A stretch of 57,194 nucleotides of DNA from a virus: positions 1 to 57,194 of IMG/VR virus record IMGVR_UViG_3300011116_000623; one strand, 5' to 3'. Under the pieces are notes generated by a model. It did not search any database and had not been told where the DNA came from. It saw nothing but the letters and a program-made list of their open reading frames with translations. The translations under genes were made by a program, and so were the position numbers. This document shows, in pieces, positions 324-11,874 of the stretch (the first letter of the stretch is position 1; the number at the start of each line of letters is the position of its first letter).

Positions 324-412
324 CAGATTTGCCCACAATTCCTGGAGATTTTCCTAGATAATATATGAATATACTTAGATAAGTATCCTATTTTATTAAA
401 TTCTTCTAAATC

Positions 413-446: not shown

Positions 447-538
447 AAATTCTGCCCCCAGAAAATATATACAAATGGGACATATACCACAATATGTACA
501 TATAGTACAAATTGGACATATGTCCCAGATGATTGATA

Positions 539-724: not shown

Positions 725-1122
725 TATAGAACCGCCTGGACCTGATTGAATGGGTCCCTGTACTCCTCGTGCAGCCATGAGTACTTGCCTGAATCTGGGG
801 CGGGTTCTGGTAGAGCCTTGATTATATCCTTAGTAGACTTAGGGAGATTAAGATTATTCCACTTATATTTTTTAGATAGGATACTTAGATTAGTATTGAG
901 TTCATTAGATAAGAACAAACCTTCTGATGTTACTCCTTGTTCAAAGTCTGCCTTATATCTTTTGCTATTAAACTTTAAGATATGAGCCAATACTTCGACT
1001 ATCCTATCAATTGTATAATGAGGTTGATTAGATAAGAGATGTGCTAGTATGGCTGGATTAAACCAATGGTCCTCCGCCACATTAGCAAGGTCATCTGCTA
1101 ACTTCTGTTCTCTAGATTTCAT
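724..1122 (-). CDS. Hypothetical early protein (132 aa)
   Basis: Unrecognised soluble, mostly helical protein. The start ATG is preceded by an AAAGGCGG Shine-Dalgarno-like stretch. It has no Cys clusters or membrane segment. It is followed directly by the basic 61-aa gene through a TAATG overlap, so the two are probably translated together. Confidence 0.7.
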   Translation of the reverse strand: MKSREQKLADDLANVAEDHWFNPAILAHLLSNQPHYTIDRIVEVLAHILKFNSKRYKADFEQGVTSEGLFLSNELNTNLSILSKKYKWNNLNLPKSTKDIIKALPEPAPDSGKYSWLHEEYRDPFNQVQAVL

Positions 1123-1201
1123 ATCCGCCTTTCTAAATCATTATACCAAACAGGGTGGGGAAGGTCAATACCGCTTGGCCCTTGACCCTCCCCAAGATTA
1201 G

Positions 1202-1348
1202 TTACTTAGACTTTACTGGAGTTTCTTTGGTAAACTGTACGCCATTCTTAACAGCTTCTGAGATAGCTTGATTTGCAGCTCCAGAGAAACGTCCACGACG
1301 GCCCACAGTAATGCCCTTGCTTTTTAGGTATTCACGTTTTGTAGTCAT
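1202..1348 (-). CDS. Miniature Lsr2-like DNA-binding protein (48 aa)
   Basis: The protein looks like an isolated C-terminal DNA-binding domain of Lsr2, the actinobacterial H-NS analogue. A helix (residues 4-12), then GITVGRRGRFSG with the RGR triad that inserts into the minor groove of AT-rich DNA, then a second helix (about 23-36). Full Lsr2 is about 110 aa with an N-terminal oligomerisation domain, which is absent here. It is a single-gene unit with its own consensus promoter (TTTACA, 17 nt, TAAAAT) and a good SD (GAAAGGATC). Family assignment rests on the motif and spacing. A role in countering or mimicking host xenogeneic silencing is inference. Confidence 0.65.
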   Translation of the reverse strand: MTTKREYLKSKGITVGRRGRFSGAANQAISEAVKNGVQFTKETPVKSK

Positions 1349-1358
1349 TTTGATCCTT

Positions 1359-1413
1359 TCATGATCATTTTCATTTTATCATATTTTCGGGGTTTTGTAA
1401 ATAGTTCCGTAAA
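1359..1413 (-). promoter_or_regulatory. Promoter of the Lsr2-like gene
   Basis: Minus strand reads TTTACA, 17 nt, TAAAAT upstream of the SD and ATG at 1348. The preceding TTTACG (1408-1413) belongs to bipartite element copy 3, so element and promoter overlap. Unlike the other leftward early promoters it lacks the WTGTCRG box. Confidence 0.55.
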
Positions 1414-1418
1414 CGAGC
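1385..1418 (-). repeat. Bipartite intergenic element, copy 3
   Basis: Minus strand: GCTCGTTTACGG, about 15 nt, CCCCGAAA. It lies between the gene ending at 1460 and the Lsr2-like gene. A GC-rich hairpin (CTGCCGC/GCGGCAG, about 1437-1453) precedes it in the direction of transcription and probably terminates the upstream operon. Confidence 0.6.
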
Positions 1419-1434
1419 TTTGTTGCCCCTATAA

Positions 1435-1455
1435 CCCTGCCGCAAAAAGCGGCAG
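1435..1455 (-). terminator. Hairpin terminator after the 1460-2607 operon
   Basis: An inverted repeat CTGCCGC-aaaaa-GCGGCAG lies immediately downstream of the stop codon at 1460. In leftward transcription the loop is T-rich but the trailing U-run is short, so efficiency is uncertain. Confidence 0.5.
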
Positions 1456-1459
1456 AATA

Positions 1460-1819
1460 TTATTCTTCTGTATCATCTAACCAAGTATCCTCATCTAAGG
1501 CTACTAGGAAGTTATTATCTATCATCCAATCACGAATAGTTTCTTCAATAATTTCTCCACCAAGATCCATATTCAATCCTAGTTTATCAGTATCTTCCCA
1601 AAACTTATCCCATACTTGTTTAAGGGTAATGCCTTCAGGAACAATCATATCTTCAAATTCACCAGGCTTCTGATAATTTGTGTATATGTCGACAATTATG
1701 TCATATGCCCATAACCACATTAATGAAGGAAATACTGGAAGAGCAGTTATCTTTAATCTAATATCCTCTAGATCTTTAAATACATCATCTCTACGAGTTG
1801 CTTCTTGTAAATCAACCAC
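1460..1819 (-). CDS. Hypothetical acidic early protein (119 aa)
   Basis: Unrecognised. The GTG start at 1819 overlaps the end of the preceding gene by eight bases. The product is acidic, with a Trp- and Asp/Glu-rich C-terminal half ending in DDTEE. It is the last gene of a five-gene overlapping operon (2607 down to 1460). Confidence 0.65.
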   Translation of the reverse strand: MVDLQEATRRDDVFKDLEDIRLKITALPVFPSLMWLWAYDIIVDIYTNYQKPGEFEDMIVPEGITLKQVWDKFWEDTDKLGLNMDLGGEIIEETIRDWMIDNNFLVALDEDTWLDDTEE

Positions 1820-2078
1820 GGGCTTTGCTCCTATCAGATATAGCGAATGATAAATTATACGTCATAGCATAGATTTCTGTCAAGGCGTCCATATAGCCTT
1901 GAATATACTGTTTTGTATCGCCTTCAGATATCCCCAATAGAACTTTTTCACATTCATACATTCTATTTTTTAAATGTCCATGCATGATGTCTGTGCCTGA
2001 TTCTCCCATGTCAACAAGTTTTTGAAGACGGGGGTCAAGTTTACTTAAAGATTCATAATCTAAATGCTCATAATTCAT
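1812..2078 (-). CDS. Hypothetical early protein (88 aa)
   Basis: Unrecognised helical protein. Its ATG lies inside the last codons of the preceding 53-aa gene, and its own stop overlaps the next GTG start. This overlapping organisation shows it belongs to the 2607-1460 operon. Confidence 0.65.
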   Translation of the reverse strand: MNYEHLDYESLSKLDPRLQKLVDMGESGTDIMHGHLKNRMYECEKVLLGISEGDTKQYIQGYMDALTEIYAMTYNLSFAISDRSKARG

Positions 2079-2229
2079 CTGCTACCTCCAATAGATGTTT
2101 AACTGCATATATCTGTCCTGGTATATCTACTACATTAATAGATTCAGGATTGTCTTGTAAGTCTTGATTAAGACTAATTAAGTATATCTTCATATATTCA
2201 ATTAGTTTATCCGTAGAATGTATTTTCAT
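2068..2229 (-). CDS. Hypothetical small protein (53 aa)
   Basis: Short gene beginning with ATG at 2229 (MKIHSTDKLIEYMK). It overlaps both neighbours: its start lies in the end of the 55-aa gene and its TGA overlaps the start region of the 88-aa gene. Chained overlaps on both sides are the main evidence. Function unknown. Confidence 0.55.
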   Translation of the reverse strand: MKIHSTDKLIEYMKIYLISLNQDLQDNPESINVVDIPGQIYAVKHLLEVADEL

Positions 2230-2374
2230 CTATATACCCTTCTGCTAGTAGGCCTTCGAAGAAATCCCATATGGTTAATAGACCTTGCTTAACGCTAGGG
2301 TCGGTGGCGGAATCAATAGCAACAGTTAAAGCATTACCAAAGTTCTGTATATCTTTATATGTATATCCTAACAT
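2207..2374 (-). CDS. Hypothetical small protein (55 aa)
   Basis: ATG at 2374, ending at TAA 2207. Starts MLGYTYKDIQNFGNAL, amphipathic and acidic. Overlaps the end of the 79-aa gene by seven bases and the start of the next by 23. Function unknown; the call rests on tight operon packing and continuous reading frame. Confidence 0.55.
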   Translation of the reverse strand: MLGYTYKDIQNFGNALTVAIDSATDPSVKQGLLTIWDFFEGLLAEGYIDENTFYG

Positions 2375-2607
2375 TCTATGTAGTATTCCTCTCCTGGCTC
2401 AACCTTCCAATATTCATTAAACCTTTGTTTGACGGAATCATCAGAGCACATATTAGCCATTTCATAATCGGCAATAAACATACCCTCATCTAAATGTCCT
2501 GTTATCCAAGAATCAAATAAATCCTCAGATATCTCTTGAACAACTGCGTCTGTAATATGCTTAGGCATATCATCAAACATGCTAGGTTGATCATTTGAAT
2601 AACCCAT
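2368..2607 (-). CDS. Hypothetical acidic protein (79 aa), operon lead gene
   Basis: First gene of the 2607-1460 operon. It is preceded by GCGAAAGGA, the SD block shared by most leftward lead genes, and by the WTGTCRG-N10-TATAAT promoter at 2632-2660. The product is acidic, with many Asp/Glu and Met residues. No motif recognised. Confidence 0.7.
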   Translation of the reverse strand: MGYSNDQPSMFDDMPKHITDAVVQEISEDLFDSWITGHLDEGMFIADYEMANMCSDDSVKQRFNEYWKVEPGEEYYIEC

Positions 2608-2631
2608 ATATATCCTTTCGCTAGGACCTTA

Positions 2632-2660
2632 ATTATATAACATGCCACTGACATTGTATA
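2632..2660 (-). promoter_or_regulatory. Early promoter with WTGTCRG box (for 2607)
   Basis: Minus strand: TATACA (-35 position), ATGTCAG, 10 nt, TATAAT. It belongs to the set of ten leftward promoters in which the 7-bp box is always exactly 10 nt upstream of the -10 hexamer. Confidence 0.65.
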
Positions 2661-2703
2661 TAGGATATAGGTGTGTTTCACACCACATGTCCAAGCTGTG
2701 AGA

Positions 2704-2738
2704 TTTCCAGGAAATATATTTGACATCCGTAAAAGAGA
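2704..2738 (-). repeat. Bipartite intergenic element, copy 4
   Basis: Minus strand: CTCTTTTACGG, 16 nt, CCTGGAAA. It lies about 45 bp upstream of the promoter at 2632-2660, the typical arrangement for this element. Confidence 0.6.
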
Positions 2739-2764
2739 TATGCTACCCTCAGCTTTTGTGGGCA

Positions 2765-2793
2765 AAAAGAAACCCCCGTATTAGCTACGGGGG
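2765..2793 (-). terminator. Rho-independent terminator for leftward transcription
   Basis: A perfect 8-bp stem CCCCCGTA/TACGGGGG with a 5-nt loop. On the minus strand it is followed by TTTCTTTTT. It ends the operon that begins around 5113-4353 and stops at 2915. Confidence 0.8.
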
Positions 2794-2914
2794 ATGGGGA
2801 AGGAAGGGCTGCTAGGACCTCAACGAAAGGAAAAGCCTGCGTTACTTAGCAACTGGACTAGTTGCACCCTTCATAAAATAGGCACCCTGGGCCTGGTAAT
2901 ATTATATCACAATC

Positions 2915-3319
2915 CTAGGTGAGCAGTTTTTCAAACGCATACTTCTCACAGAATGCTGTCAGGTCCATAGTAAATATTGCTTCGTTTCTCATACCTAGAA
3001 CTTTATTTTCTAAATTACGGTGGTCGTCTTGCTCATGCAATGAGAAGGTCTGCTGTTGCCAATTAATAACAGCAATCTTGTGCTCGTTATCTCCAATTGA
3101 ATTTACTTGAAGACCCCAGCCTGTTTCCATATTCCACTGGTCGCCAATCAAATGACTGATAGCAATACGTGTGGCATATGATTCATCATTCCAACGTGGA
3201 CGGGCAGCAATCACAGCATCTGCTAATCTTCCTAGCATATTGTGTCCAGCCCAATGTCCGTATAAACAAATTGTATCGCCTGCTCCATCTACGAATACAA
3301 AGTTTGCTCTGTCTCCCAT
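2915..3319 (-). CDS. Hypothetical phage protein starting MGDRANFVF (134 aa)
   Basis: The sequence pattern (MGDRANFVFVDG, LYGHWAGH, SYATRI) matches a family I recall as common in actinobacteriophages and some plasmids, with no assigned function. The product is compact and soluble, with several Trp and His residues. Its start follows the 65-aa zinc-ribbon gene by three bases, so they are co-transcribed. The terminator at 2765-2793 lies downstream. Confidence 0.75.
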   Translation of the reverse strand: MGDRANFVFVDGAGDTICLYGHWAGHNMLGRLADAVIAARPRWNDESYATRIAISHLIGDQWNMETGWGLQVNSIGDNEHKIAVINWQQQTFSLHEQDDHRNLENKVLGMRNEAIFTMDLTAFCEKYAFEKLLT

Positions 3320-3322
3320 ATT

Positions 3323-3520
3323 TTATTCCGCCTTTTCTAGTTGAGGTAGTGCTTCTTCCTTTTTGTCTAATTCTATCATTTCATAGGCCCATTTGTCTAG
3401 GATCTCTGAATTCTTATTTCTGTGATGTCCACAGAATGCTAACTCGCCAGATGTGCTACGAGCCAACCATTTAGCCTGAGCTGAACATTGATCACATTTA
3501 ATCCAGGGTAGGTCTGTCAT
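3323..3520 (-). CDS. Small zinc-ribbon protein (65 aa)
   Basis: Contains CDQC at residues 9-12 and CGHH at about 30-33, separated by a SGEL turn. This gives one four-ligand zinc site like that of the DUF7455 family of actinobacteria and their phages. The C-terminal half is a charged helix. Its ATG overlaps the TGA of the 48-aa gene upstream (ATGA). Function unknown; regulatory or protein-binding roles are possible. Confidence 0.75.
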   Translation of the reverse strand: MTDLPWIKCDQCSAQAKWLARSTSGELAFCGHHRNKNSEILDKWAYEMIELDKKEEALPQLEKAE

Positions 3521-3663
3521 ATCTTATTGCTCTCAATCATGTCAGCCAGCCTATCAAGAAGCCAGTTATCGATATCGTTAATATCAATCTCCCGTAACTT
3601 CTCCATCATTTCCTCACGGGCAAACTTATACCCATCTTGGAATCCATCCTTATACTCAGACAT
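3517..3663 (-). CDS. Hypothetical small helical protein (48 aa)
   Basis: ATG at 3663, TGA overlapping the next start. Begins MSEYKDGFQDGYKFAREEM, reminiscent of short phage proteins with a DGYxxGxxFAR-type helix. Acidic and helical. It sits in a chain of ATGA/TAATG overlaps from 5113 to 2915. Confidence 0.6.
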   Translation of the reverse strand: MSEYKDGFQDGYKFAREEMMEKLREIDINDIDNWLLDRLADMIESNKI

Positions 3664-3895
3664 TCAACATCCTATCATATCTGTATGCCAATTCATTATC
3701 AGCATAACTGGTCTCAATTAGAACTTTAAGTTGGTGCTTAGATATTAATCTGCTCACCTTCTCAATGTTACCTGTTCCAATCTCGAAAGTCAAGGCACTG
3801 TAGTCATAATTACTTGGGTCAAGTCCTCCAACCTCAGCGTCCCATACAGAAAACTGGAACGCCTTGGTTGAATTTGCTTTTAACTTATAATACAT
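3656..3895 (-). CDS. Hypothetical protein (79 aa)
   Basis: Unrecognised. I start it at ATG 3895, which shares its A with the TAA of the upstream gene, rather than at a TTG three codons earlier. The product alternates predicted strands and helices (MYYKLKANSTKAFQFSVWD). Its end overlaps the 48-aa gene by eight bases. Confidence 0.6.
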   Translation of the reverse strand: MYYKLKANSTKAFQFSVWDAEVGGLDPSNYDYSALTFEIGTGNIEKVSRLISKHQLKVLIETSYADNELAYRYDRMLNV

Positions 3896-4353
3896 TAGTT
3901 CCAATCCACATCTGTATCTTCAATTAACCATGAGTTAATATCAACTGCGGATGTATTGCTATCTAATGATAGTTCATCACCTAGATAATAATGAGCGTCA
4001 AAGTCTTCAACCTCATCAAGTGGAACATCTATTGTTACTTCAAATGAAATAGTTCCAGTTACAGTAACTTGCTTAGATGGATTAATACCAAAGTATTCGC
4101 ATAGTAAGCGAATTACATCATCTTTGTCATAGTTAGGATTTACCCATTCTATAATTTGCTCTTCAAGACCATCTACCTTATTACGCAGGCTATAGTATTC
4201 AGAGGTACGTTGTCTAGCATTTTCTAGTACCCATTCTAAATCTGTTACTTTTGTAATTGGGAATGTAACAGTGTCTCCATCAATAACCTTGTATTGTACA
4301 AGGGCATTAGGATTATAGGTATCAGGTGTTACGGTTGCTCCATATGTTTCCAT
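3895..4353 (-). CDS. Hypothetical acidic protein (152 aa)
   Basis: Preceded by AACGAAAGGAAA, the shared SD block. The N-terminal part contains a short coiled-coil-like stretch (LEWVLENARQRTSEYYSLRNKVDGLEEQI). The C-terminal part is beta-rich with a TGTISFEVTIDV strand and an acidic DEVEDFD end. It resembles unnamed actinophage proteins with an N-terminal coiled coil and C-terminal beta domain. Function unknown. Confidence 0.7.
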   Translation of the reverse strand: METYGATVTPDTYNPNALVQYKVIDGDTVTFPITKVTDLEWVLENARQRTSEYYSLRNKVDGLEEQIIEWVNPNYDKDDVIRLLCEYFGINPSKQVTVTGTISFEVTIDVPLDEVEDFDAHYYLGDELSLDSNTSAVDINSWLIEDTDVDWN

Positions 4354-4354
4354 G

Positions 4355-5113
4355 TTAGTTTCCTTTCGTTGTGGTAGTGGCTAATTGTACACCATGGGTC
4401 TGACATTGCTTCATTGCTTCCTCATCCTGCCAAGAACCTTGATTACATTCTGAGCAGAATTCACCGCAACCATTATCACAATACTCAATACAATCATAAG
4501 ATTGGCAAGCATAGCAACGATTTTCATATTCTAAGTTTTCTTTAACCTCACCACGGACAATCTCATATTCTCCGCCCCAACCTTGCTCCTCTTCAAATTC
4601 AAGGGTAAGCAAGCAGTTAGGAACAAGATTACTTAGTTTAGTTAATATAGTTACGGCAGGCGACCATGCAGTATTATATTTATATACAAGCCAGTTGTCA
4701 TCACCTTCTGATTCATATTCAAGTAGTTCAGTATCAGGATACTTATCACCGTCTGATACAGCAACATCCCATTTGGTTCCCCAATTAGAATTATTCCATG
4801 AATACCAATCTTTTTGGGTTTTGGCATGTTCAACTGATTTAGCAAACCAGTCAGGATCATTTGTATTTATTTTACTATGATCAGGTTGCTGAACATATTC
4901 CTCCATTGTAATACCATCCTCTAATGGAGAATGTATATTCCAAAATGCAAAGACAGGATTAGAATAAATGGATTCAGTTACTTCCATTTTATTAGTTTCC
5001 ATATTCCAACTGTCATGCCATACAGTAAATGGCTCATTTAGTTTATCTTTAATAAAGTCTATCTCAGACTTAGGACCTTGAATTGTCAAGGTGTTGTATA
5101 CCCAGTTAGGCAT
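4355..5113 (-). CDS. Api92-like ferredoxin-fold protein with C-terminal Cys-rich extension (252 aa)
   Basis: Start chosen at ATG 5113, right after AACGAAAGGA. The N-terminus MPNWVYNTLTIQG, a central NWGTKWD, and a later TAW-P segment followed by a GWGGEYE turn match the Api92-like/YubB ferredoxin-like family found in phages and plasmids. Its biochemical role is unknown. Residues from about 200 add a region with eight Cys (CYAC, CIEYC, CGEFCSEC) that could bind zinc; I do not know this extension from the family. Lead gene of its operon. Confidence 0.75.
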   Translation of the reverse strand: MPNWVYNTLTIQGPKSEIDFIKDKLNEPFTVWHDSWNMETNKMEVTESIYSNPVFAFWNIHSPLEDGITMEEYVQQPDHSKINTNDPDWFAKSVEHAKTQKDWYSWNNSNWGTKWDVAVSDGDKYPDTELLEYESEGDDNWLVYKYNTAWSPAVTILTKLSNLVPNCLLTLEFEEEQGWGGEYEIVRGEVKENLEYENRCYACQSYDCIEYCDNGCGEFCSECNQGSWQDEEAMKQCQTHGVQLATTTTKGN

Positions 5114-5138
5114 TTCATTCCTTTCGTTGAATGTCGCA

Positions 5139-5167
5139 ATTGTAGCAGAGTCGAATGACATTATCAA
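5139..5167 (-). promoter_or_regulatory. Early promoter with WTGTCRG box (for 5113)
   Basis: Minus strand: TTGATA, ATGTCAT, 10 nt, TACAAT. This copy has a good -35 hexamer immediately before the box, giving a conventional 17-nt spacer. Confidence 0.7.
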
Positions 5168-5170
5168 GGA

Positions 5171-5206
5171 TTCTTGGGGTTTTATTTATAGATGCCGTAA
5201 GAGAGC
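5171..5206 (-). repeat. Bipartite intergenic element, copy 5
   Basis: Minus strand: CTCTCTTACGG, 16 nt, CCCCAAGAA. It directly abuts the promoter at 5139-5167. Confidence 0.55.
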
Positions 5207-5245
5207 TAGGCTGCCTTCAGCCCTGGGGGCAGCTGGGCCCTATGT

Positions 5246-5263
5246 GGGGCCCTTTCGGGCCCC
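5246..5263. terminator. GGGGCCC/GGGCCCC hairpin
   Basis: A perfect 7-bp GC stem with a TTTC loop directly downstream of the DUF932-like gene. There is no U-run, so it may be a weak or factor-dependent terminator, or an mRNA 3' stabiliser. Further GGGCCC segments lie just beyond it. Confidence 0.6.
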
Positions 5264-5271
5264 GTTAAGGA

Positions 5272-6279
5272 TTAGGCTAGAGCCTTAACCATCTTGAGAA
5301 TTTTATTTTTCTCAGCGGTAATTACAGGATCAAATCCTGAAGCAGCAGCCATTAGCGAATTAGTATTACCAGTTTTAGATGAACGGTAATAATCTAAACG
5401 CTCAGTTAATGCATTAAACGCACCCCAAGCGGTACCCTTAATCATTGAGTTAGTTGGTGAGTTATGATAAAGATCATCAATAACCACAACTTTGTTTTCC
5501 CATACAGTTAAAGCAGCCTTAGTTGCTTGTTCTGGCTTAGGATAAATTGTGCGAATCAAATCTGAAAATTGCTTATCAGTAATTGATTGCTGGAATAATT
5601 CGTTAGCCTGCTTTTGAAATTCATCTGCATATGCAAATGTTAATCCCAATGCTTGACGGGCTTGCACAATTCTGCCTTCGGCAGTTTGTGTGTGGCGAAT
5701 TTTAAATGATTGCTTAGCGGTACGCATTGCAACATTTAGAGTGTTTTGACATACTACACGAACAGGCGTGATCGCTGCCTGAACAGCAACAGAGCCATCA
5801 TGTGATGTCCATACAATTAAATACAACTTAGTTTTATCGTTAACCCCTTGTGGGTCTAATACGATCTCTTTAGGAATATCTAATGAGCCGAATACAATCT
5901 TGCCCTTCTTTAAAGAGCCAGCAGACTCCCATTTAGCAGAATTAGAATCTAGTACATTATCAGCAAATGCAAATAACTCTTCATTCTGAACGGTTTTGTA
6001 TCGCTTGCCAACTACTGACAAAACATCAGTGCCTTGGTCAAATGGATTATCACGAATCACAAAGAAATTATCTGATGTATTTCTCCATGTAGTAGGGATA
6101 TGATCTGCAACATCCGATAAGCGAACATTCCAGTTATTTAACTTTGCTTCTTCAAGCATTGTTTGAGTTGACACATTCTCATCTTGTGAGAATATGCGAT
6201 TAGCAAGATTATGCCAAGCAGGAGCACCACGCAATGCGAATGCCACTTGACCATCTTGCTCTTCTAGATTATGAGCCAT
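5272..6279 (-). CDS. DUF932-like phage/plasmid protein (335 aa)
   Basis: Start placed at ATG 6279, preceded by AAACGAAAGGATAAA, giving MAHNLEEQDGQVAFALRG. The signature GAPAWHNLA, the VVGKRYKTVQNEE segment, TPVRVVCQNTLN and WGAFNALTERLDYYR identify the DUF932 family (phage/plasmid-like protein of the TIGR03299 type). Members are usually 300-400 aa and occur with early DNA metabolism genes. The biochemical role is not established. It is a single-gene unit with its own promoter and a GC hairpin after the stop. Confidence 0.85.
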   Translation of the reverse strand: MAHNLEEQDGQVAFALRGAPAWHNLANRIFSQDENVSTQTMLEEAKLNNWNVRLSDVADHIPTTWRNTSDNFFVIRDNPFDQGTDVLSVVGKRYKTVQNEELFAFADNVLDSNSAKWESAGSLKKGKIVFGSLDIPKEIVLDPQGVNDKTKLYLIVWTSHDGSVAVQAAITPVRVVCQNTLNVAMRTAKQSFKIRHTQTAEGRIVQARQALGLTFAYADEFQKQANELFQQSITDKQFSDLIRTIYPKPEQATKAALTVWENKVVVIDDLYHNSPTNSMIKGTAWGAFNALTERLDYYRSSKTGNTNSLMAAASGFDPVITAEKNKILKMVKALA

Positions 6280-6304
6280 TTTATCCTTTCGTTTAAGTTG
6301 CCTT

Positions 6305-6334
6305 ATTCTAGCATACTTGACTGACATTTGACAA
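6305..6334 (-). promoter_or_regulatory. Early promoter with WTGTCRG box (for 6279)
   Basis: Minus strand: TTGTCA, one extra base, ATGTCAG, 10 nt, TAGAAT. It lies 26 bp upstream of the DUF932-like start codon and drives that gene. Confidence 0.7.
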
Positions 6335-6348
6335 GATTAGCGTCATTC

Positions 6349-6384
6349 TTTTCAGGAGTTTTCCACAGCTAGCCGTAAGGCTGT
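6349..6384 (-). repeat. Bipartite intergenic element, copy 6
   Basis: Minus strand: CCTTACGG, 15 nt, CTCCTGAAAA. In this copy the element is overlaid by two inverted DnaA-box-like 9-mers. Confidence 0.55.
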
Positions 6385-6390
6385 GGATAA
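6359..6390. promoter_or_regulatory. Inverted pair of DnaA-box-like 9-mers
   Basis: TTTTCCACA at 6359-6367 and TGTGGATAA (reverse complement of TTATCCACA) at 6382-6390 face each other. TTATCCACA is the consensus bacterial DnaA box. The pair also forms a CCACAGC/GCTGTGG inverted repeat. Either host DnaA regulation or simple hairpin formation is possible. Confidence 0.5.
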
Positions 6391-6391
6391 C

Positions 6392-6408
6392 CCCCCACCG
6401 TTGGGGGC
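6392..6408 (-). terminator. Hairpin after the 73-aa gene
   Basis: CCCCCAacggtGGGGG-type inverted repeat just downstream of the stop at 6414. It is followed leftward by the inverted DnaA-like boxes. No U-run. Confidence 0.45.
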
Positions 6409-6413
6409 GGCGG

Positions 6414-6635
6414 TTACTTAATTAGTCTCCTGGAATCCATTGGATAAAATGCTGCAGCGGTTTTCTTTTTCTTTATTTGATCATATACATATGCTTTAAC
6501 GTTGCCTTTAAATTTTGGCAAGTAAGAGAATAATATTTTAGAAAGAGCTTCTCTCTCTACATTCTCATCTGAATAAATAGTTAAATCGTTTGACTTTATT
6601 TCGTCATACATTTCGATACGGTATCTACTCCGCAT
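6414..6635 (-). CDS. Hypothetical basic protein (73 aa)
   Basis: Unrecognised. ATG at 6635 preceded by AAAGGAAC. Starts MRSRYRIEMYDEI with alternating beta-strand pattern and a basic KKKKT segment near the C-terminus. Single-gene unit between two hairpins. Confidence 0.6.
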   Translation of the reverse strand: MRSRYRIEMYDEIKSNDLTIYSDENVEREALSKILFSYLPKFKGNVKAYVYDQIKKKKTAAAFYPMDSRRLIK

Positions 6636-6673
6636 TTTGTTCCTTTGTTAGTAGGGATAACTATTTTAACATA

Positions 6674-6698
6674 GGGGGCTAGATTTTGTCTAGCCCCC
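6674..6698 (-). terminator. Perfect 10-bp hairpin terminator
   Basis: GGGGGCTAGA-TTTTG-TCTAGCCCCC lies six bases after the stop of the 140-aa gene. It is followed leftward by TATGTTAAAAT, which may serve as the -10 of the next gene, so terminator and promoter are nearly fused. Confidence 0.75.
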
Positions 6699-6704
6699 AG
6701 TTAA

Positions 6705-7127
6705 TTACAAGTATCTTGCGATAGCGTTGTAAGTTGAGGTAGAAACTACTTCCTCATCTGTCATCTTGAGGATACGAATAGCATTTTCCAATTCCTCTTT
6801 CATCTCACGATAAGTATGAGTATGGATTACCTCATAATCACGCTCAGGCTCTTTTGGAAAATCTGTTCCATCTGTTGATAGGTCAAAATCAACATTAAGA
6901 GAGTTAGACCATTGACGATAATTAGTGCGTAGGTTTTCTGCTTTGGAAAAGCGGTCAATAGCCCACTTACCAAGTTCCTTCTGCCACTTTTCATGTGCCT
7001 TCTTGTATTTGGCTTCTTTTTCGTCTTGCTTAATATAGTCAGCCTCTACTTGTGCTAACTTTGTTTCTAAGGCTTTAATAACCTTAGCAGTAGCGATTTT
7101 TACGCTGATGGGTTTGCTTCTTGCCAT
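6705..7127 (-). CDS. Hypothetical coiled-coil protein (140 aa)
   Basis: Lead ATG at 7127 preceded by TAACGAAAGGAAAC. The first 60 residues are highly charged with heptad-like spacing (VIKALETKLAQVEADYIKQDEKEAKYKKAHEKW region), suggesting a coiled coil. A second helix spans about 105-125. No catalytic motif seen. It resembles unnamed early proteins of actinophages. Confidence 0.7.
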   Translation of the reverse strand: MARSKPISVKIATAKVIKALETKLAQVEADYIKQDEKEAKYKKAHEKWQKELGKWAIDRFSKAENLRTNYRQWSNSLNVDFDLSTDGTDFPKEPERDYEVIHTHTYREMKEELENAIRILKMTDEEVVSTSTYNAIARYL

Positions 7128-7197
7128 TTGTTTCCTTTCGTTAGGTTTATTGGTTGAGCAGTTTTAGTTGTCATGCTCAGGACATTTAGCGTGGTGG

Positions 7198-7356
7198 CTA
7201 ATTCTTTGTAGATACGCTTGTCCAGCGTTCTTTACCATCTACATCTAGCAAAACTCTAGCAGTTCCGCTAGGGTGATTATCTATTGCTTTGATAATCCCT
7301 GTAATACCGCTTTGGGTAGTTGTGTAGGCTTTGCCTACTTCTAGTGTTGTTGTCAT
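7198..7356 (-). CDS. Hypothetical small beta-rich protein (52 aa)
   Basis: ATG at 7356 follows AAACGAAAGGAAAC. The protein MTTTLEVGKAYTTTQSG... ending with ERWTSVSTKN alternates strands and glycines like small SH3- or KOW-type barrels. The product of 10237-10431 has a similar look (LLVGKHYRS, EGEIVSAEKD). Function unknown. It has its own promoter at 7381-7409. Confidence 0.65.
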   Translation of the reverse strand: MTTTLEVGKAYTTTQSGITGIIKAIDNHPSGTARVLLDVDGKERWTSVSTKN

Positions 7357-7380
7357 TTGTTTCCTTTCGTTTAGGGTTGT

Positions 7381-7409
7381 ATTATAGCACCTGCTACTGA
7401 CAATTAGTA
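7381..7409 (-). promoter_or_regulatory. Early promoter with WTGTCRG box (for 7356)
   Basis: Minus strand: TTGTCAG, 10 nt, TATAAT, about 25 nt upstream of the start codon. The box overlaps the last codon of the upstream gene (stop at 7404), so there is no room for a bipartite element here. Confidence 0.7.
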
Positions 7410-7673
7410 GTCGGTTTCAGGTAGCCACGCTTCTAGGTGATGCGCTTCTATAAGGGCGGATGCGGGTGCTTGATCTCTGCCCTTCCATAGTACGCCTTCA
7501 GGTAGCACGATCATCTTATCGTAGTCCTCCTCATAGTAGGCATCAATAGCCTCTATACAAGGTTGCACCATTGAGGCGGGAACGGGTGGGTAATGATTAC
7601 TTTGTAGGTGTATTAGGATTGCTTGATCTAAGTCAAAACTCTCAGCCAAGTCTAGTGCTGTGTTATATCCCAT
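7404..7673 (-). CDS. Hypothetical acidic protein (89 aa)
   Basis: Unrecognised. The ATG follows the TAA of the upstream gene without a gap (TAAATG). Acidic, Tyr- and Leu-rich, with YYEEDYD and a C-terminal WLPETDY. Third gene of the 8155-7404 operon. Confidence 0.65.
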   Translation of the reverse strand: MGYNTALDLAESFDLDQAILIHLQSNHYPPVPASMVQPCIEAIDAYYEEDYDKMIVLPEGVLWKGRDQAPASALIEAHHLEAWLPETDY

Positions 7674-7949
7674 TTATTCTAACTCCTCTAGTATAGTTTC
7701 TGTTAAGTTATCCATTTCGTTAATTGTATCAATAAGGTCTGACATCTGCGCCTCTGTCAATAAGACTTTGGTAGTTAGGTCTGCCACCTTACTTGCTAAT
7801 GCTACCGAATACATATAGATATATTTAGGGAATTGGCTATCTGTAAGTTCATTTCTACGGGTGTGTAGTTCCCCCGCTAAGCCCATAATTTCCTCATCAA
7901 ATATAGCTTTTTTAGTAGCGTCTGCTACTGCCACCGCTGTTGATAACAT
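7674..7949 (-). CDS. Hypothetical helical protein (91 aa)
   Basis: Unrecognised, mostly helical, with an N-terminal Ala/Val-rich helix and an acidic C-terminal helix (MDNLTETILEELE). Start overlaps the upstream stop (TAATG). Middle gene of the 8155-7404 operon. Confidence 0.6.
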   Translation of the reverse strand: MLSTAVAVADATKKAIFDEEIMGLAGELHTRRNELTDSQFPKYIYMYSVALASKVADLTTKVLLTEAQMSDLIDTINEMDNLTETILEELE

Positions 7950-8155
7950 TATTCCACCACTTTTAATAGAGCGAAAGAATTGTTAGCATTTACCTCATCT
8001 AAAATTGGTTTTAATTTAGGTGCGATTATTGTTTTTAGCATGCCTTCTAGCATAGCAATTTGGCTTTCTTTAGACAAGGCAAGTAGTCGCTTTGCTGTTG
8101 GATCGTTCTCGTCCAGTTCTGTAATAAACTTTAGAGAGTGTTCGATTTGTTTCAT
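7949..8155 (-). CDS. Hypothetical protein (68 aa), operon lead gene
   Basis: Start at ATG 8155 chosen because AAACGAAAGGAAAA ends just before it; a longer frame to 8221 would run through the promoter. Product MKQIEHSLKFITELDEND... is helical. Drives a three-gene operon with 7674-7949 and 7404-7673. Confidence 0.65.
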   Translation of the reverse strand: MKQIEHSLKFITELDENDPTAKRLLALSKESQIAMLEGMLKTIIAPKLKPILDEVNANNSFALLKVVE

Positions 8156-8180
8156 TTTTTCCTTTCGTTTGATTAGTGGA

Positions 8181-8209
8181 ATTATATCAGGGCTAACTGA
8201 CATTATTTG
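8181..8209 (-). promoter_or_regulatory. Early promoter with WTGTCRG box (for 8155)
   Basis: Minus strand: ATGTCAG, 10 nt, TATAAT. The conventional -35 position (CAAATA) is poor, so the box probably substitutes for a -35 contact. A GGGCGTGTTG motif lies just upstream. Confidence 0.7.
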
Positions 8210-8222
8210 CAACACGCCCATA

Positions 8223-8258
8223 TTTTCTAGGGTGATTTATATCACACCCGTAAGGACA
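8223..8258 (-). repeat. Bipartite intergenic element, copy 7
   Basis: Minus strand: TCCTTACGG, 16 nt, CCCTAGAAAA. It lies directly upstream of the promoter at 8181-8209 and is followed on the other side by a GTGGGCGC hairpin region (about 8262-8295). Confidence 0.55.
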
Positions 8259-8295
8259 CGCCCGACCCCGCACACATGTGGGCGCAGCTTCGGCG

Positions 8296-8388
8296 CTATT
8301 TAAATATAAAATAAAAAAATAATATAAAGGGGGCCGCAATTATCCCAGACAATAGGGCCCCAGTTATTTCACCTAACGTAGTTGCCAT
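8296..8388 (-). CDS. 30-aa membrane microprotein
   Basis: ATG at 8388 abuts the TAA of the GP88-like gene (TAAATG), so it can be translated by reinitiation. The product begins MATTLGEITGALLSG, and from about residue 9 it is a single uninterrupted hydrophobic segment ending in FYFIFK. The frame lies in otherwise AT-rich intergenic DNA. A small inner-membrane peptide is inferred; its role is unknown. Confidence 0.5.
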   Translation of the reverse strand: MATTLGEITGALLSGIIAAPFILFFYFIFK

Positions 8389-9138
8389 TTATTTTTTAGT
8401 AGCAGAAAATCTAATATCTGCTTTTCCATAAACACACAATCCGCAAGATACGCAAGCAGAACCATTAGTAGAAATTAATGGAATGCTTTTATTATTTTCG
8501 GGACATTTAGCGCCAGGCTTACCAATTAATTCTTTCATAGTATTTTCGGTAACGGCAAAAGTCTTTCCTAAATATGCTAATCTAATTTTAGTACCAGTCT
8601 TACGCAGATCATGCGCTATATCCTTATTCTCATCATCCGTAGAATAATAAAGAGATAGATTAGCAATGTTGTCTAGAATAAGCGCAGCAGACTTAACTCG
8701 TGTGTATACCCAAAATTGGATATCTGAATTTTGCAAGATTACATACTGCCATGCACGTGCATAGGTATCATTAAAAAAATCTCCGTCCCAGTGGATACGG
8801 AATAATAATTTAGCATTTTTCTTTTCACAATCTTTTCTAAAATCATTAATCATATTTTCTAATAGGTCTACCATAGTGGGCTCATCAGCGTCTTTTAATA
8901 AATTCCAATTGTGCATGAGCACGTCTCTTACACCTTTATAAACTTTTTCTAATTTGCCAGCATAACACACGCTTTCGCATATACTAGTAGCGCCAGGACA
9001 TGAGAATGCCTTGCCTGCAGGCAGGCCGAATGTATTAGCAATAGCAGGCGTCTTGCCATTTTTAGACACAAGATTAGTAACCTTGCGATCATTAGATCTT
9101 TTTAACATGGGGATAATTATAGCAGGCGAGGGTGACAT
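8389..9138 (-). CDS. GP88-like Cys-rich phage protein (249 aa)
   Basis: Residues 35-60 contain NTFGLPAGKAFSCPG, then CESVCYAG, the signature I associate with the phage 'gene product 88' family. The middle (LLFRIHWDGDFFN, QFWVYTRV) fits the same family. The C-terminus adds CPENN and CVSCGLCVYG, so eight or nine Cys could bind a metal or iron-sulfur cluster. The function of the family is not established. The ATG at 9138 overlaps the upstream TAA; an in-frame ATG ten codons later is possible. Confidence 0.8.
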   Translation of the reverse strand: MSPSPAIIIPMLKRSNDRKVTNLVSKNGKTPAIANTFGLPAGKAFSCPGATSICESVCYAGKLEKVYKGVRDVLMHNWNLLKDADEPTMVDLLENMINDFRKDCEKKNAKLLFRIHWDGDFFNDTYARAWQYVILQNSDIQFWVYTRVKSAALILDNIANLSLYYSTDDENKDIAHDLRKTGTKIRLAYLGKTFAVTENTMKELIGKPGAKCPENNKSIPLISTNGSACVSCGLCVYGKADIRFSATKK

Positions 9139-9293
9139 TATAAGTCACCCATCTCAGCATCCGCCATGCGTGTCATAGCCCAATCTTGAGCTAAATCACG
9201 ATCATATACGGCCATGCCTTCCGTAGTATAGCCACGGGCACAAATTGTGCAAATAGAGTGATTAGTACAGTAGCATGAATTGATATCGTTCAT
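9138..9293 (-). CDS. Small Cys-rich protein (51 aa)
   Basis: ATG at 9293 follows TAACGAAAGGTCAAC. Residues 7-18 carry CYC and CTIC (CYCTNHSICTIC), a possible zinc knuckle, followed by an acidic helix. Coupled by TAATG to the GP88-like gene, so the two may work together. Confidence 0.65.
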   Translation of the reverse strand: MNDINSCYCTNHSICTICARGYTTEGMAVYDRDLAQDWAMTRMADAEMGDL

Positions 9294-9319
9294 TAGTTGA
9301 CCTTTCGTTAAGTAATGGA

Positions 9320-9348
9320 ATACTAACAGATCACACTGACATTTACAA
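9320..9348 (-). promoter_or_regulatory. Early promoter with WTGTCRG box (for 9293)
   Basis: Minus strand: TTGTAA, ATGTCAG, 10 nt, TAGTAT. A GGCGTGTCG motif precedes it. Confidence 0.65.
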
Positions 9349-9364
9349 ATCGACACGCCGCAGA

Positions 9365-9398
9365 TTTCGGGGGATTTTTTTAATGTGGCGTAAATCAC
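9365..9398 (-). repeat. Bipartite intergenic element, copy 8
   Basis: Minus strand: GATTTACG, 15 nt, CCCCCGAAA. It lies about 20 bp upstream of the promoter at 9320-9348. Confidence 0.6.
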
Positions 9399-9404
9399 AA
9401 AATG

Positions 9405-9425
9405 CCCCCACAGCATATGTGGGCG
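9405..9425. terminator. CCCACA/TGTGGG hairpin
   Basis: Inverted repeat CCCACA-gcata-TGTGGG within GCCCCCACA...TGTGGGCGCC, downstream of the leftward gene ending at 9446. Similar GTGGGCGCC hairpin arms occur at about 8278 and 10633, always just upstream of a bipartite element. Confidence 0.5.
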
Positions 9426-9445
9426 CCGAACATTTGTTCTAATAA

Positions 9446-9571
9446 TTAATTAGAAGCTTTTTTATGTTTTATTTTTCTAGTATATTTTTTTTTATTGCGA
9501 ATAGGTTGCGCCGCATTTGATCGGCGCAATTCCTGAATACGTTTTACTTTATTTAGAAGAGAAGTTTGGAA
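9446..9571 (-). CDS. Small strongly basic protein (41 aa)
   Basis: The frame starts with ATG 9571, inside the end of the preceding gene. The product has RIQELRRSNAAQP followed by a Lys/Arg-rich tail (KKKYTRKIKHKK). Short proteins with an ELRRSNAA motif and basic tail are familiar from actinophages. RNA or DNA binding is inferred from charge only. Confidence 0.55.
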   Translation of the reverse strand, partial: FQTSLLNKVKRIQELRRSNAAQPIRNKKKYTRKIKHKKASN

Positions 9572-9740
9572 CATAATAACCGCTTGCATCATAGAATTTT
9601 TTAGCATCAAACCTCGGATTATCTTTAGCAAACATCATTGCAAAATCTACAACTGTTTTAGAAAATAAAGATGGATGAATTTTATCGCTAAGATTTTTCA
9701 TAATCTCAGCGGTAGCAATATAATCTTTGCGACTTTTCAT
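9549..9740 (-). CDS. Hypothetical protein (63 aa)
   Basis: ATG overlaps the TGA of the upstream gene. The pattern IHPSLFSKTVVDFA, NPRFDAKKFYDASG is one I recognise from unnamed actinophage proteins of about 60-80 aa. Helical. Function unknown. Confidence 0.7.
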   Translation of the reverse strand: MKSRKDYIATAEIMKNLSDKIHPSLFSKTVVDFAMMFAKDNPRFDAKKFYDASGYYVPNFSSK

Positions 9741-9937
9741 TTAGCAGACACCAATCCAATCTGATTAAAGTTTTTAGTATACATTTTGCCATTAGGCATT
9801 TCTAAATTGTAGGTTGCGTATTCATTAGCAAACCCGTGATCTTTACATCTAGCAAAAGCCTCAAACGCCAATAAAGCGTCAGAGAATTGGTGTGTGAATT
9901 CCAATTTTCCGTCATAGTAAGTAAATAATTTATACAT
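9737..9937 (-). CDS. Hypothetical protein (66 aa)
   Basis: ATG at 9937 (MYKLFTYYDGK) preferred: it overlaps the TAA of the 41-aa zinc-knuckle gene and has GTAGGTG upstream. Alternating aromatic-rich strands and a helix (ALLAFEAFARCKDHG). Function unknown. Confidence 0.65.
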   Translation of the reverse strand: MYKLFTYYDGKLEFTHQFSDALLAFEAFARCKDHGFANEYATYNLEMPNGKMYTKNFNQIGLVSAK

Positions 9938-10062
9938 TAAGCACCTACGCAATCGCAAGTTTTTACATCAAATTCAGGTTTTAATCCCCAATAGATATAT
10001 CCACGCCCACCACAATCAGCACAATCTAAAATTACGCTGTCCCGCATTTTTTGTTTATTCAT
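9937..10062 (-). CDS. DnaJ-type zinc-finger-like peptide (41 aa)
   Basis: ATG at 10062 follows AAACGAAAGGTAAA. Contains CADCGGRGYIYWG and a C-terminal CDC, reminiscent of half of a DnaJ CxxCxGxG zinc finger plus a second Cys pair. Probably binds one zinc. No J-domain present. Role unknown. Confidence 0.6.
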   Translation of the reverse strand: MNKQKMRDSVILDCADCGGRGYIYWGLKPEFDVKTCDCVGA

Positions 10063-10088
10063 TTTTTACCTTTCGTTTTGTTAATGGA

Positions 10089-10117
10089 ATTGTAGCATAG
10101 GGGTCTGACAATTAGTC
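10089..10117 (-). promoter_or_regulatory. Early promoter with WTGTCRG box (for 10062)
   Basis: Minus strand: TTGTCAG, 10 nt, TACAAT, in the 49-bp gap between two genes. It drives the 10062-9446 gene cluster. Confidence 0.7.
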
Positions 10118-10237
10118 AAACGCCCCTTCATTAAATAATCCTAACTCTAATTCTAATAAAGTTTCTGCGGGAATATCTGAGAGATCTAGCCAGCCAGCAC
10201 CCTCAGAGTCCATATGAAAAACCTCAATATATCCCAC
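10112..10237 (-). CDS. Hypothetical acidic peptide (41 aa)
   Basis: Frame from a GTG at 10237 that shares its first base with the upstream TAG (TAGTG). An internal ATG nine codons later is an alternative. Acidic, ending LELGLFNEGAFD. Function unknown. Its stop lies within the next promoter. Confidence 0.5.
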   Translation of the reverse strand: MGYIEVFHMDSEGAGWLDLSDIPAETLLELELGLFNEGAFD

Positions 10238-10431
10238 TAATCACCAACTTTCACGCCAATAGTTCGCACCTTGCGGTCTGAACCAATTTCCACTAAATAA
10301 CTTTCGATATTCATTCCGTAGAATGTAGCACGAGGATCTTTTTCGGCAGAAACAATTTCGCCTTCCAAAGTATTTGAGCGATAGTGCTTACCCACTAGCA
10401 GGTTTTCTATTGTGTATATATTTGCAGACAT
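10237..10431 (-). CDS. Hypothetical small beta-barrel-like protein (64 aa)
   Basis: Starts MSANIYTIENLLVGKHYRS; an AGAAGG SD precedes the ATG. The run of short strands (GEIVSAEKD, YLVEIGSDRKVRTIGV) suggests an SH3-like barrel, similar in style to the 52-aa product at 7198-7356. Function unknown. Confidence 0.65.
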   Translation of the reverse strand: MSANIYTIENLLVGKHYRSNTLEGEIVSAEKDPRATFYGMNIESYLVEIGSDRKVRTIGVKVGD

Positions 10432-10462
10432 TGCAACCTTCTTTCTTTTTGGTTATGCCGTT

Positions 10463-10491
10463 ATTATACTAGACCCCACCGACAATTTGCA
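10463..10491 (-). promoter_or_regulatory. Early promoter with WTGTCRG box (for 10431)
   Basis: Minus strand: TTGTCGG, 10 nt, TATAAT. This copy has G instead of A at the sixth box position, as does the one at 11225-11253. Confidence 0.65.
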
Positions 10492-10553
10492 TATTACTTG
10501 TGAGTAATTCCAGATATTGAGACGCTCAATCTATGTGTGCTTAATCACATTAG

Positions 10554-10627
10554 TTATCCACGACACGCCCGAAGTTTTCCACAGCTTTCCAGGGTTTATC
10601 CACATCTGTGCGTAAACCTGTGGATAA
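10554..10627. promoter_or_regulatory. Cluster of four DnaA-box-like 9-mers
   Basis: TTATCCACG (10554-10562), TTTTCCACA (10575-10583), TTATCCACA (10596-10604) and, inverted, TGTGGATAA (10619-10627). TTATCCACA is the consensus DnaA box and the others differ by one base. This density in 74 bp is typical of an origin or a DnaA-titration/regulatory site. The cluster overlaps bipartite element copy 9 in the 248-bp gap between genes ending at 10680 and starting at 10431. Origin function is inferred. Confidence 0.6.
10586..10620 (-). repeat. Bipartite intergenic element, copy 9
   Basis: Minus strand: GGTTTACG, 16 nt, CCCTGGAAA, interleaved with DnaA-like boxes. It lies about 95 bp upstream of the promoter at 10463-10491, the longest spacing in the set. 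Confidence 0.6.
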
Positions 10628-10679
10628 CCGCCCTCACCAGCTTGTGGGCGCCGCCGCCTTTGTCAAGGCGACACGCCGT

Positions 10680-10778
10680 CTATTCTTTGTGAGGTTGCTC
10701 ACATACGCATTTGGTATATGCGCCTGCGTTTAACCTGCCACATTTAGGGCAGGTATAAAATCCGCTAGGGTTAGCCAT
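10680..10778 (-). CDS. Small zinc-ribbon peptide (32 aa)
   Basis: ATG at 10778. Contains CPKCG at residues 10-14 and CVC near residue 25, a minimal zinc ribbon. Last gene of the 11191-10680 operon, followed by a short GCCTT/AAGGC hairpin. Confidence 0.55.
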   Translation of the reverse strand: MANPSGFYTCPKCGRLNAGAYTKCVCEQPHKE

Positions 10779-10781
10779 TGT

Positions 10782-10922
10782 TTATTTTCTCCATTGTCTT
10801 ATTGACCATGCTAAAGAAATACCGCCAAATAATAACCATGTAGGTATCTCTATCGCAATACCACTAGGATATAAGTTGCTAATATATAGCGCAAAATATT
10901 CTAAGTCTATAGTTAATTCCAT
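10782..10922 (-). CDS. Small single-pass membrane protein (46 aa)
   Basis: ATG at 10922 overlaps the start of the upstream gene's stop context. N-terminal acidic amphipathic stretch, then a hydrophobic segment around residues 22-40 (IPTWLLFGGISLAW), then a basic end (IRQWRK), consistent with one membrane helix. Function unknown. Confidence 0.6.
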   Translation of the reverse strand: MELTIDLEYFALYISNLYPSGIAIEIPTWLLFGGISLAWSIRQWRK

Positions 10923-11096
10923 TTACTCTGCCCCTTCCCAATCTAGTGTTAATTCATTTTCGATTAACTCATCAAGGCTAACGATATCCTCGTCAAACTC
11001 TGCTTCGGCATTTACTTTGTCTAACGCTTCTAATTCGTCTAAGTGGCGATAAGCGTCTGCCACATCTAGTTGAATAGTGTCCCATTTAGTCATCAT
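10923..11096 (-). CDS. Hypothetical acidic protein (57 aa)
   Basis: ATG at 11096 (a second ATG follows). Extremely acidic and Leu-rich (HLDELEALD, FDEDIVSLDELIENELTLDWEG). Such small acidic phage proteins can be DNA mimics, but this is speculation. Coupled on both sides in the 11191-10680 operon. Confidence 0.6.
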   Translation of the reverse strand: MMTKWDTIQLDVADAYRHLDELEALDKVNAEAEFDEDIVSLDELIENELTLDWEGAE

Positions 11097-11191
11097 TAGT
11101 TGTTGTCCTCGCTTTCATCAATTCCGAACATGTCGCCTAATAATTGGTTAGCCAATTTTAGAGCGTCTATTGCGCTTTGTGTGTTATCCAT
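11096..11191 (-). CDS. Hypothetical peptide (31 aa), operon lead
   Basis: ATG at 11191 preceded by GAAAGAAGG. One helix followed by an acidic tail (DESEDNN). First gene after the promoter at 11225-11253. Coding nature rests on promoter, SD and TAATG coupling to the next gene. Confidence 0.5.
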   Translation of the reverse strand: MDNTQSAIDALKLANQLLGDMFGIDESEDNN

Positions 11192-11224
11192 TTTCTTACC
11201 TTCTTTCGTTTTTGTTATGGTGAA

Positions 11225-11253
11225 ACCTTATCACACCTAACCGACAATCGGCA
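11225..11253 (-). promoter_or_regulatory. Early promoter with WTGTCRG box (for 11191)
   Basis: Minus strand: TTGTCGG, 10 nt, TAAGGT. The -10 is weak, but box and spacing are kept. A GTGTGTCG motif lies upstream. Confidence 0.6.
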
Positions 11254-11267
11254 AGGCGACACACCCT

Positions 11268-11456
11268 TTAGAGGGTGTGAGATACCTCACATGCGGTATC
11301 GCATCTAGGCACATCTGCCATGATTAAGTTTAGCAGACCTACACGCTCAGACTTAGTAAGTCTAAGGCGGGCAACAGTATCAGGCTTGATACCTCCATGA
11401 TTATATTCGAACAATAGTTCGTTATAGATTAAGTCTAGGTTAGACATGTTAGACAT
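11268..11456 (-). CDS. Hypothetical protein (62 aa), first leftward gene
   Basis: ATG at 11456 (or 11447), SD AGAAGGG. Starts MSNMSNLDLIYNELLFEYNHGG; helical, with a TKSERVGLLNLI stretch. Rightmost gene of the left arm. Its promoter is at 11566-11594, leaving a leader of about 100 nt containing a 19-bp direct repeat. Confidence 0.65.
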   Translation of the reverse strand: MSNMSNLDLIYNELLFEYNHGGIKPDTVARLRLTKSERVGLLNLIMADVPRCDTACEVSHTL

Positions 11457-11491
11457 TTATTTATCCCTTCTAAGATAATTTTGTTAAGAGC

Positions 11492-11536
11492 GATTATTTG
11501 CTAGGCTCACCTTATCGGATTATTTGCTAGGCTCAC
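11492..11536. repeat. 19-bp direct repeat pair
   Basis: GATTATTTGCTAGGCTCAC occurs identically at 11492-11510 and 11518-11536, 26 bp apart (start to start), between promoter and start codon of the 62-aa gene. Could be tandem protein-binding sites or a simple duplication. Confidence 0.7.
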
Positions 11537-11565
11537 GCTCTAATTCTTTATTTTGTTATACCTTA

Positions 11566-11594
11566 ATCATATAAGGGGGGACTGACATTTTGCC
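11566..11594 (-). promoter_or_regulatory. Early promoter with WTGTCRG box (for 11456)
   Basis: Minus strand: ATGTCAG, 10 nt, TATGAT. Rightmost member of the set of ten. GGACAT repeats (TCGGACATGTCGGACAT, then TCGGACATTTTT) lie upstream at about 11605-11696. Confidence 0.6.
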
Positions 11595-11791: not shown

Positions 11792-11864
11792 TGGGGATTA
11801 GCTCAGCAGGCAGAGCGGGAAGCTGTTAACTTCTAGGTCGTAAGTTCGAATCTTACATCTCCAG
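11792..11864 (+). tRNA. tRNA-Asn (GTT)
   Basis: Complete cloverleaf. The acceptor stem is TGGGGAT/ATCTCCA with one G-U pair. The D arm is GCTC/GAGC. The anticodon stem GGAAG/CTTCT holds loop CTGTTAA with anticodon GTT. The T arm is GTAAG-TTCGAAT-CTTAC. The discriminator is G and CCA is not encoded. A phage tRNA for AAC/AAU codons suits the Asn-rich fibre proteins. It sits at the strand switch, rightward, from the repeat promoter at 11714-11770. Confidence 0.93.
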
Positions 11865-11874
11865 CAATCATCTC

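Follow-up and report, generated by a model that had tools for sequence, protein, structure and literature searches.

A TGTCRG box held in fixed register with an extended -10 element in a family of freshwater phages related to Streptomyces BE phages

Why would a phage place the same short box, at exactly the same distance from the -10 element, in front of one small gene after another? The viral record IMGVR_UViG_3300011116_000623, which we analyzed over its positions 1 to 57,194 (hereafter the window; 57,194 bases, 37% G+C), raises this question in an arm of small genes at its left end. A first-pass annotation of the window had listed ten promoters there in which a box precedes the -10 hexamer by an invariant 10 nucleotides; all ten are present, with exactly 10 nucleotides between WTGTCR(G/T) and TAnnnT, and the list had overlooked two more, at 4384–4406 and 7723–7745. 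All twelve are minus-strand sites that fall within 9 kb, from 2632 to 11588. One box at one exact distance from the -10 element across a dozen or more small, putatively early genes suggests a dedicated switch protein.

The register itself is the firmest result. In the window, the pattern with a 10-nucleotide spacer (N10) has 12 matches on the minus strand and none on the plus strand, and other spacers give 0–3, in keeping with the annotation's claim of invariant spacing. Equal frequency in shuffled sequence had been named there as the counter-test: 100 dinucleotide shuffles gave a mean of 1.72 matches (standard deviation 1.16, maximum 5), and none reached 12. The fixed-spacing search that the annotation proposed finds the same N10 spike in relatives, where loci fetched by protein similarity, and thus chosen without reference to the promoter, hold 367 sites at N10 compared with 3 at N9 and 0 at N11. 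An independent set of loci fetched by an unrelated RNA motif holds 346 sites at N10 compared with 1 and 7 at the flanking spacings, and searches with an N11 pattern, used as an off-register control, returned almost no matches. The shuffles and the spike in relatives lead us to reject chance. Moreover, 219 of the 224 full boxes (WTGTCRGTSS) in loci L001–L032 have a TAnnnT at the exact register, as do 226 of 235 in the loci fetched by the RNA motif, so boxes without a -10 element are nearly absent in relatives. Near-complete relatives carry 7–16 strict sites each and one shorter contig carries 22 (a reversed-pattern control gave 0); these sites cluster, share one strand almost without exception and, in the genomes mapped, occupy a single arm of ~10–15 kb. 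Especially regular arrays occur in a more distant lineage (L092, L086 and L103), where a contig can hold up to 22 sites and nearly all read AATGTCAGTGG.

Named by their low ends on the minus strand, the window's sites begin with 2632–2654 (ATGTCAG, TATAAT), upstream of the open reading frame (ORF) at 2368–2607, and 4384–4406 (ATGTCAG, TACAAT), upstream of ORF 3895–4353 and overlapping the 3′ end of ORF 4355–5104; both have orthologous sites in three relatives (G001, G002 and G003). The box was as the annotation described it, with the site at 5139–5161 reading ATGTCAT rather than ATGTCAG; there, a -10 of TACAAT is joined by a -35 of TTGATA at a spacer of 17, upstream of an Api92-like ORF (ATG at 5104). 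At 6305–6327 (ATGTCAG, TAGAAT), upstream of a DUF932 gene, there is a -35 of TTGTCA at a spacer of 18. Next come 7381–7403 (TTGTCAG, TATAAT), upstream of ORF 7198–7356; 7723–7745 (ATGTCAG, TACAAT), which lies inside ORF 7674–7949 and upstream of ORF 7404–7673, with similar intragenic sites in G001 and G003; 8181–8203 (ATGTCAG, TATAAT), upstream of the ORF ending at 7949; 9320–9342 (ATGTCAG, TAGTAT), upstream of the ORF ending at 9138; 10089–10111 (TTGTCAG, TACAAT), upstream of ORF 9937–10062; 10463–10485 (TTGTCGG, TATAAT), upstream of ORF 10237–10431; and 11225–11247 (TTGTCGG, TAAGGT), upstream of ORF 11096–11191. The site at 11566–11588 (ATGTCAG, TATGAT) is the first promoter of the arm and leads into a structured leader. 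Downstream of most sites stand a short leader, a GAAAGG-type ribosome site and a start codon, and in relatives the predicted start site is a median of 24 nucleotides from the ATG.

What kind of promoter is this? A logo built from 161 sites of less than 60% mutual identity reads AWTGTCRGTSS at -30 to -20, T at -15 and G at -14, TATAAT, a pyrimidine at -1 and A at +1. The search had imposed only the W, TGTC, the R, the following G or T, and the TA...T letters of the hexamer. The conserved letters that it had left free, namely the TG at -15/-14 (G at -14 in 130 of 161 sites), the further letters of the -10 and the YA at -1/+1, argue that these are genuine sigma-A-type promoters with an extended -10, TGnTATAAT, in which TGn directly precedes the hexamer and the predicted start falls ~7 nucleotides downstream. 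Free variation is seen between the box and TGn and also in the flanks.

The annotation also held that the true -35 is poor, which is correct on average but not absolutely, as the TTGATA and TTGTCA of sites 5139 and 6305 illustrate. TTG stands at -35 or -36 in 72 of 323 non-redundant promoters, compared with ~2.5% at a control position; it is found at -35 in 35 cases and at -36 in 37, with 1–9 at neighboring positions. Because both positions are used, the -35 element slides by one base, whereas the box is fixed relative to the -10; the Streptomyces phage NootNoot shows the same sliding. A TTG is rarer where the box is complete (36 of 211 versus 36 of 112, Fisher p = 0.003).

How far does this promoter extend beyond the window? 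In an unbiased scan of four-letter words at every distance from TAnRnT, TGTC-N12-TAnRnT came out on top in the window's arm (12 versus 0.62 expected, p = 4e-12), and TGTC-N12 was also top in G001, G003, L103 and NootNoot (7 versus 0.17 expected in NootNoot, p = 7e-10); in L086 and L092 the overlapping word GTCA came first and TGTC a close second. Jay2Jay has six TGYC-N12-TAGAnT and none at N7–N11 or N13, and MindFlayer (Karimacvirus) has at most traces of the box. The same scan of Comrade (Loccivirinae) found no TGTC-N12, only classical -35 words. The presence of the TGTC core at the same position in the Streptomyces relatives indicates that this core predates the freshwater lineage, whose own form has the longer box and a weak -35.

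A scan of IMG/VR with nothing but the promoter returned at least 120 stretches; 116 of the 120 listed belong to the window's phage family by protein matches. The promoter alone is thus a DNA signature that recovers this family from millions of contigs. Among 84,980 bacterial and archaeal species (GTDB), by comparison, the strict promoter gave 49 matches. These are scattered over phyla, include no freshwater actinobacterium and are about as many as base counts alone would predict, a result that rejects an ordinary host promoter as the main explanation. Five Nocardia genomes (L186, L193, L206, L209 and L212) have one strict-pattern match each, possibly at one conserved locus.

The carriers are related, and so is the arm. 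Relatives of the DUF932 protein occur at 56–92% identity in 33 IMG/VR contigs and, more distantly, in seven further ones; identity to the Streptomyces BE phages is ~52%. The window and Jay2Jay have a common gene order of reverse-strand arm, glycosyltransferase, ribonucleotide reductase, portal, protease and capsid, and because homologous core genes stand in the same order, we place the window in a freshwater lineage that is kin to the Streptomyces BE phages (Stanwilliamsviridae). We infer that the host is an actinobacterium. The arm of small genes (1–11594, minus strand) is syntenic with that of Jay2Jay, whose arm genes are present at both genome ends, and an lsr2-like gene is part of the direct terminal repeats, ~11 kb long, of BE1 phages (PMC5764925). 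In G001, a relative of 110,973 bases, the arm links two parts found at opposite ends of Jay2Jay, as expected of a terminal repeat. The freshwater arm corresponds to the ~11-kb repeat of the Streptomyces phages and may itself be a terminal repeat; this genome position is what makes its genes probably early. A tRNA-Asn(gtt) gene (11792–11865, plus strand) lies at the arm boundary.

The nearest known layout is the T4 middle promoter, to which the first-pass annotation had likened these sites. In that class, a MotA box, (a/t)3TGCTTtA, is centered at -30, 12 ± 1 bp from the -10, and about half of the promoters also carry TGn (PMC2988021). The likeness holds for layout: a phage box stands in for a strong -35 at a fixed distance from a strict sigma -10 that often has TGn, and the window's promoters likewise combine an excellent -10 with a weak or absent -35. 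It does not hold for sequence or box position: the core is TGTCRGTSS (-28 to -20) rather than TGCTT, so these are not MotA boxes; the box lies 4–5 bp nearer the -10 with invariant spacing; and the phage is of actinobacterial type, with sites in a putative terminal-repeat arm instead of middle genes and with some -35 remaining. The comparison to MotA would be one of layout, not descent. Extended -10 primary-sigma promoters have the TGnTATAAT, the YA start and the weak -35, but lack the extra nine-base asymmetric element at a fixed distance. The Streptomyces BE1 (Samistivirus) arm is homologous, with shared DUF932, GP88 and Lsr2-like genes and a TGTC/TGYC core at -28 to -25, but the Streptomyces phages retain TTG -35s, use TAGACT as the -10 and show just CTGYCC where the freshwater phages have the longer box. 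Overall, the promoter class is real and family-wide, and it belongs to a known kind, the phage-specific box promoter, here in a different form.

We favor, at a probability of roughly one half, a composite phage early promoter read by a factor docked on RNA polymerase and probably encoded by the phage. Host sigma-A RNA polymerase would read the extended -10 (TGnTATAAT), and a second protein, docked on the polymerase, would recognize the asymmetric AWTGTCRGTSS box (-30 to -20) and do most of what the -35 element otherwise does. Some 10–20 small genes, the majority behind individual short leaders, would be switched on together from the terminal-repeat arm, probably the first DNA into the cell; the near-consensus -10 may give basal activity, such that a first wave could start before the factor exists. 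An activating, polymerase-docked protein is favored because the register is invariant, the orientation single and free boxes near absent, and because there is a partial trade with the -35. The preference for TGTCAG or TGTCGG also varies by genome (chi2 298, 95 degrees of freedom), as a co-evolving factor would be predicted to give, with shared descent also contributing.

Several observations weigh against such an activator. An extended -10 can suffice for a promoter that lacks a -35, so that losing the -35 does not by itself call for an activator. The -35 trade-off is modest and partly non-monotonic across box scores, and the sites behind it share descent and are not phylogenetically independent. 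The box coexists with -35 elements in Streptomyces phages, and L083 and L136, contigs with few or no proteins in common with the window, carry it together with a good TTGACA. If the arm is truly transcribed first, a phage activator would not yet have been made unless it were injected. Finally, domain searches named no box-binding protein: the MotA C-terminal domain (PF09158) matched none of 16 records, where its control also matched nowhere; sigma region 2 (PF04542) was absent from the records searched; and sigma region 4 (PF04545) gave only weak matches below cut-off, with no full region 4.

A possible but clearly less probable alternative is that the box is the operator of a phage repressor, with the arm genes firing at once and later shut together by covering -30 to -20. 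A box between -35 and -10 is in the classical blocking position, extended -10s can fire unaided, and arm genes that are probably first-wave would need a timed shut-off. L5-type repressors likewise use asymmetric sites oriented with transcription, and the operators and stoperators of Cluster A phages (L5, TipsytheTRex), which bind the immunity repressor of temperate phages, are also found without a promoter (PMC9283540). An asymmetric site repeated many times in short gaps between genes and pointing along transcription resembles these stoperators, an option that the annotation had raised; however, such sites tolerate shifts and other positions, whereas the boxes here are locked to a -10, almost never stand alone and are confined to one arm, and for this reason we reject stoperators. 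The weaker -35s that accompany complete boxes also speak against a repressor, as does the tyrosine integrase search: none (PF00589) was found in 16 records with a working control, in a search that did not cover serine integrases and in which some contigs are incomplete.

We consider it unlikely that a host factor, or the host RNA polymerase itself, reads the box and makes a phage protein unnecessary. Such a reader would solve the first-wave timing problem, and the box does occur in other phage contigs (L083, L136 and L099) that have few or no proteins of the window. However, a host regulon of the same architecture should have appeared in the GTDB scan, where the strict promoter stayed near chance, and the core is common to phages of hosts as different as Streptomyces and freshwater bacteria. 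That the regularity merely reflects recent duplication of a promoter cassette, or chance, is very improbable: although one arm holds many small genes with similar upstream regions, the same letters are kept across the divergent sites of the logo while spacer and flanks vary freely, sites recur where the shared proteins are only ~50% identical, and the shuffles exclude chance.

If a phage-encoded activator reads the box, which protein might it be? Candidates are WhiB, the Lsr2-type protein of the arm or an unannotated small arm protein. WhiB is carried by almost all long contigs of the family; in the two sets of records searched it was present in 14 of 16 and 9 of 10, among them Comrade, which carries WhiB without the box, and MindFlayer, which is nearly without it. 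The Lsr2-type protein (1202–1348, minus strand), ~48 residues in the freshwater phages, resembles one Lsr2-type DNA-binding repeat and is homologous to the N-terminal part of the Lsr2-like proteins of Streptomyces phage arms; scored alone, the window's copy is a weak match (E = 0.14), and the full Lsr2 domain (PF11774) was not found. It is a candidate arm DNA-binding protein, and among the top families it is, with DUF932 and GP88, all that the arm shares with Streptomyces arms. A helix-turn-helix protein of 46–53 residues resembling sigma region 4 occurs in 5 of 16 records (L238–L241; best E 1.8e-5, below cut-off); with this weak PF04545 signal confined to those records and PF04542 absent, we reject a phage sigma factor as a general answer. 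Arm gene families tied to the TGTCGG preference proved to be lineage markers only and gave no convincing binder. One specific, rather doubtful version of the favored reading is that these phages have their own sigma-appropriation system for actinobacterial RNA polymerase, in which WhiB would engage sigma-A region 4 as AsiA does and a second small protein would bind TGTCRGTSS as MotA does. If true, the T4 middle-promoter strategy would have been invented a second time, independently, in another phylum and in the DNA that enters first.

Phages of freshwater actinobacteria are very abundant and mostly uncultured, and to our knowledge very little is known about how lytic actinobacteriophages take over host transcription. 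The promoter is not described in the literature that we searched, which did not extend to subscription papers and preprints. A promoter class whose box can be read, found across many contigs of IMG/VR and to some extent in Streptomyces phages already in culture, brings the takeover question within reach of laboratory tests.

The first arm promoter is followed by a tandem structured leader RNA (11481–11548, minus strand) with two copies of UGAGC-(stem)-CAAAUAA. Relatives hold 24 distinct copies, and the middle stem is fully complementary in 151 of 151 counted copies, many of them related, with the variants CUAG/CUAG (137), CUAAG/CUUAG (7), CUUAG/CUAAG (4), CUAGG/CCUAG (2) and CUGAG/CUCAG (1); the outer stems also show matched changes. 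Single-sequence folding energies are mostly no better than those of shuffles, and Rfam gave no match at gathering score. In a scan with the leader RNA motif, 101 of 107 matches belonged to the same phage family, and 93 of the 151 copies lie 39–76 nucleotides after a box promoter.

A different arrangement occurs in DSL-LC01 (L228; OQ999401.1), a lake phage with WhiB genes. Between ~22,600 and 44,000, it carries 30 promoters of the form GATTCTAAAG-N4-TATAAT-nGAATC, at fixed spacing and with no obvious -35; the -10 is flanked by an inverted repeat that the two ends make up. They constitute a second, different class of phage box promoter.

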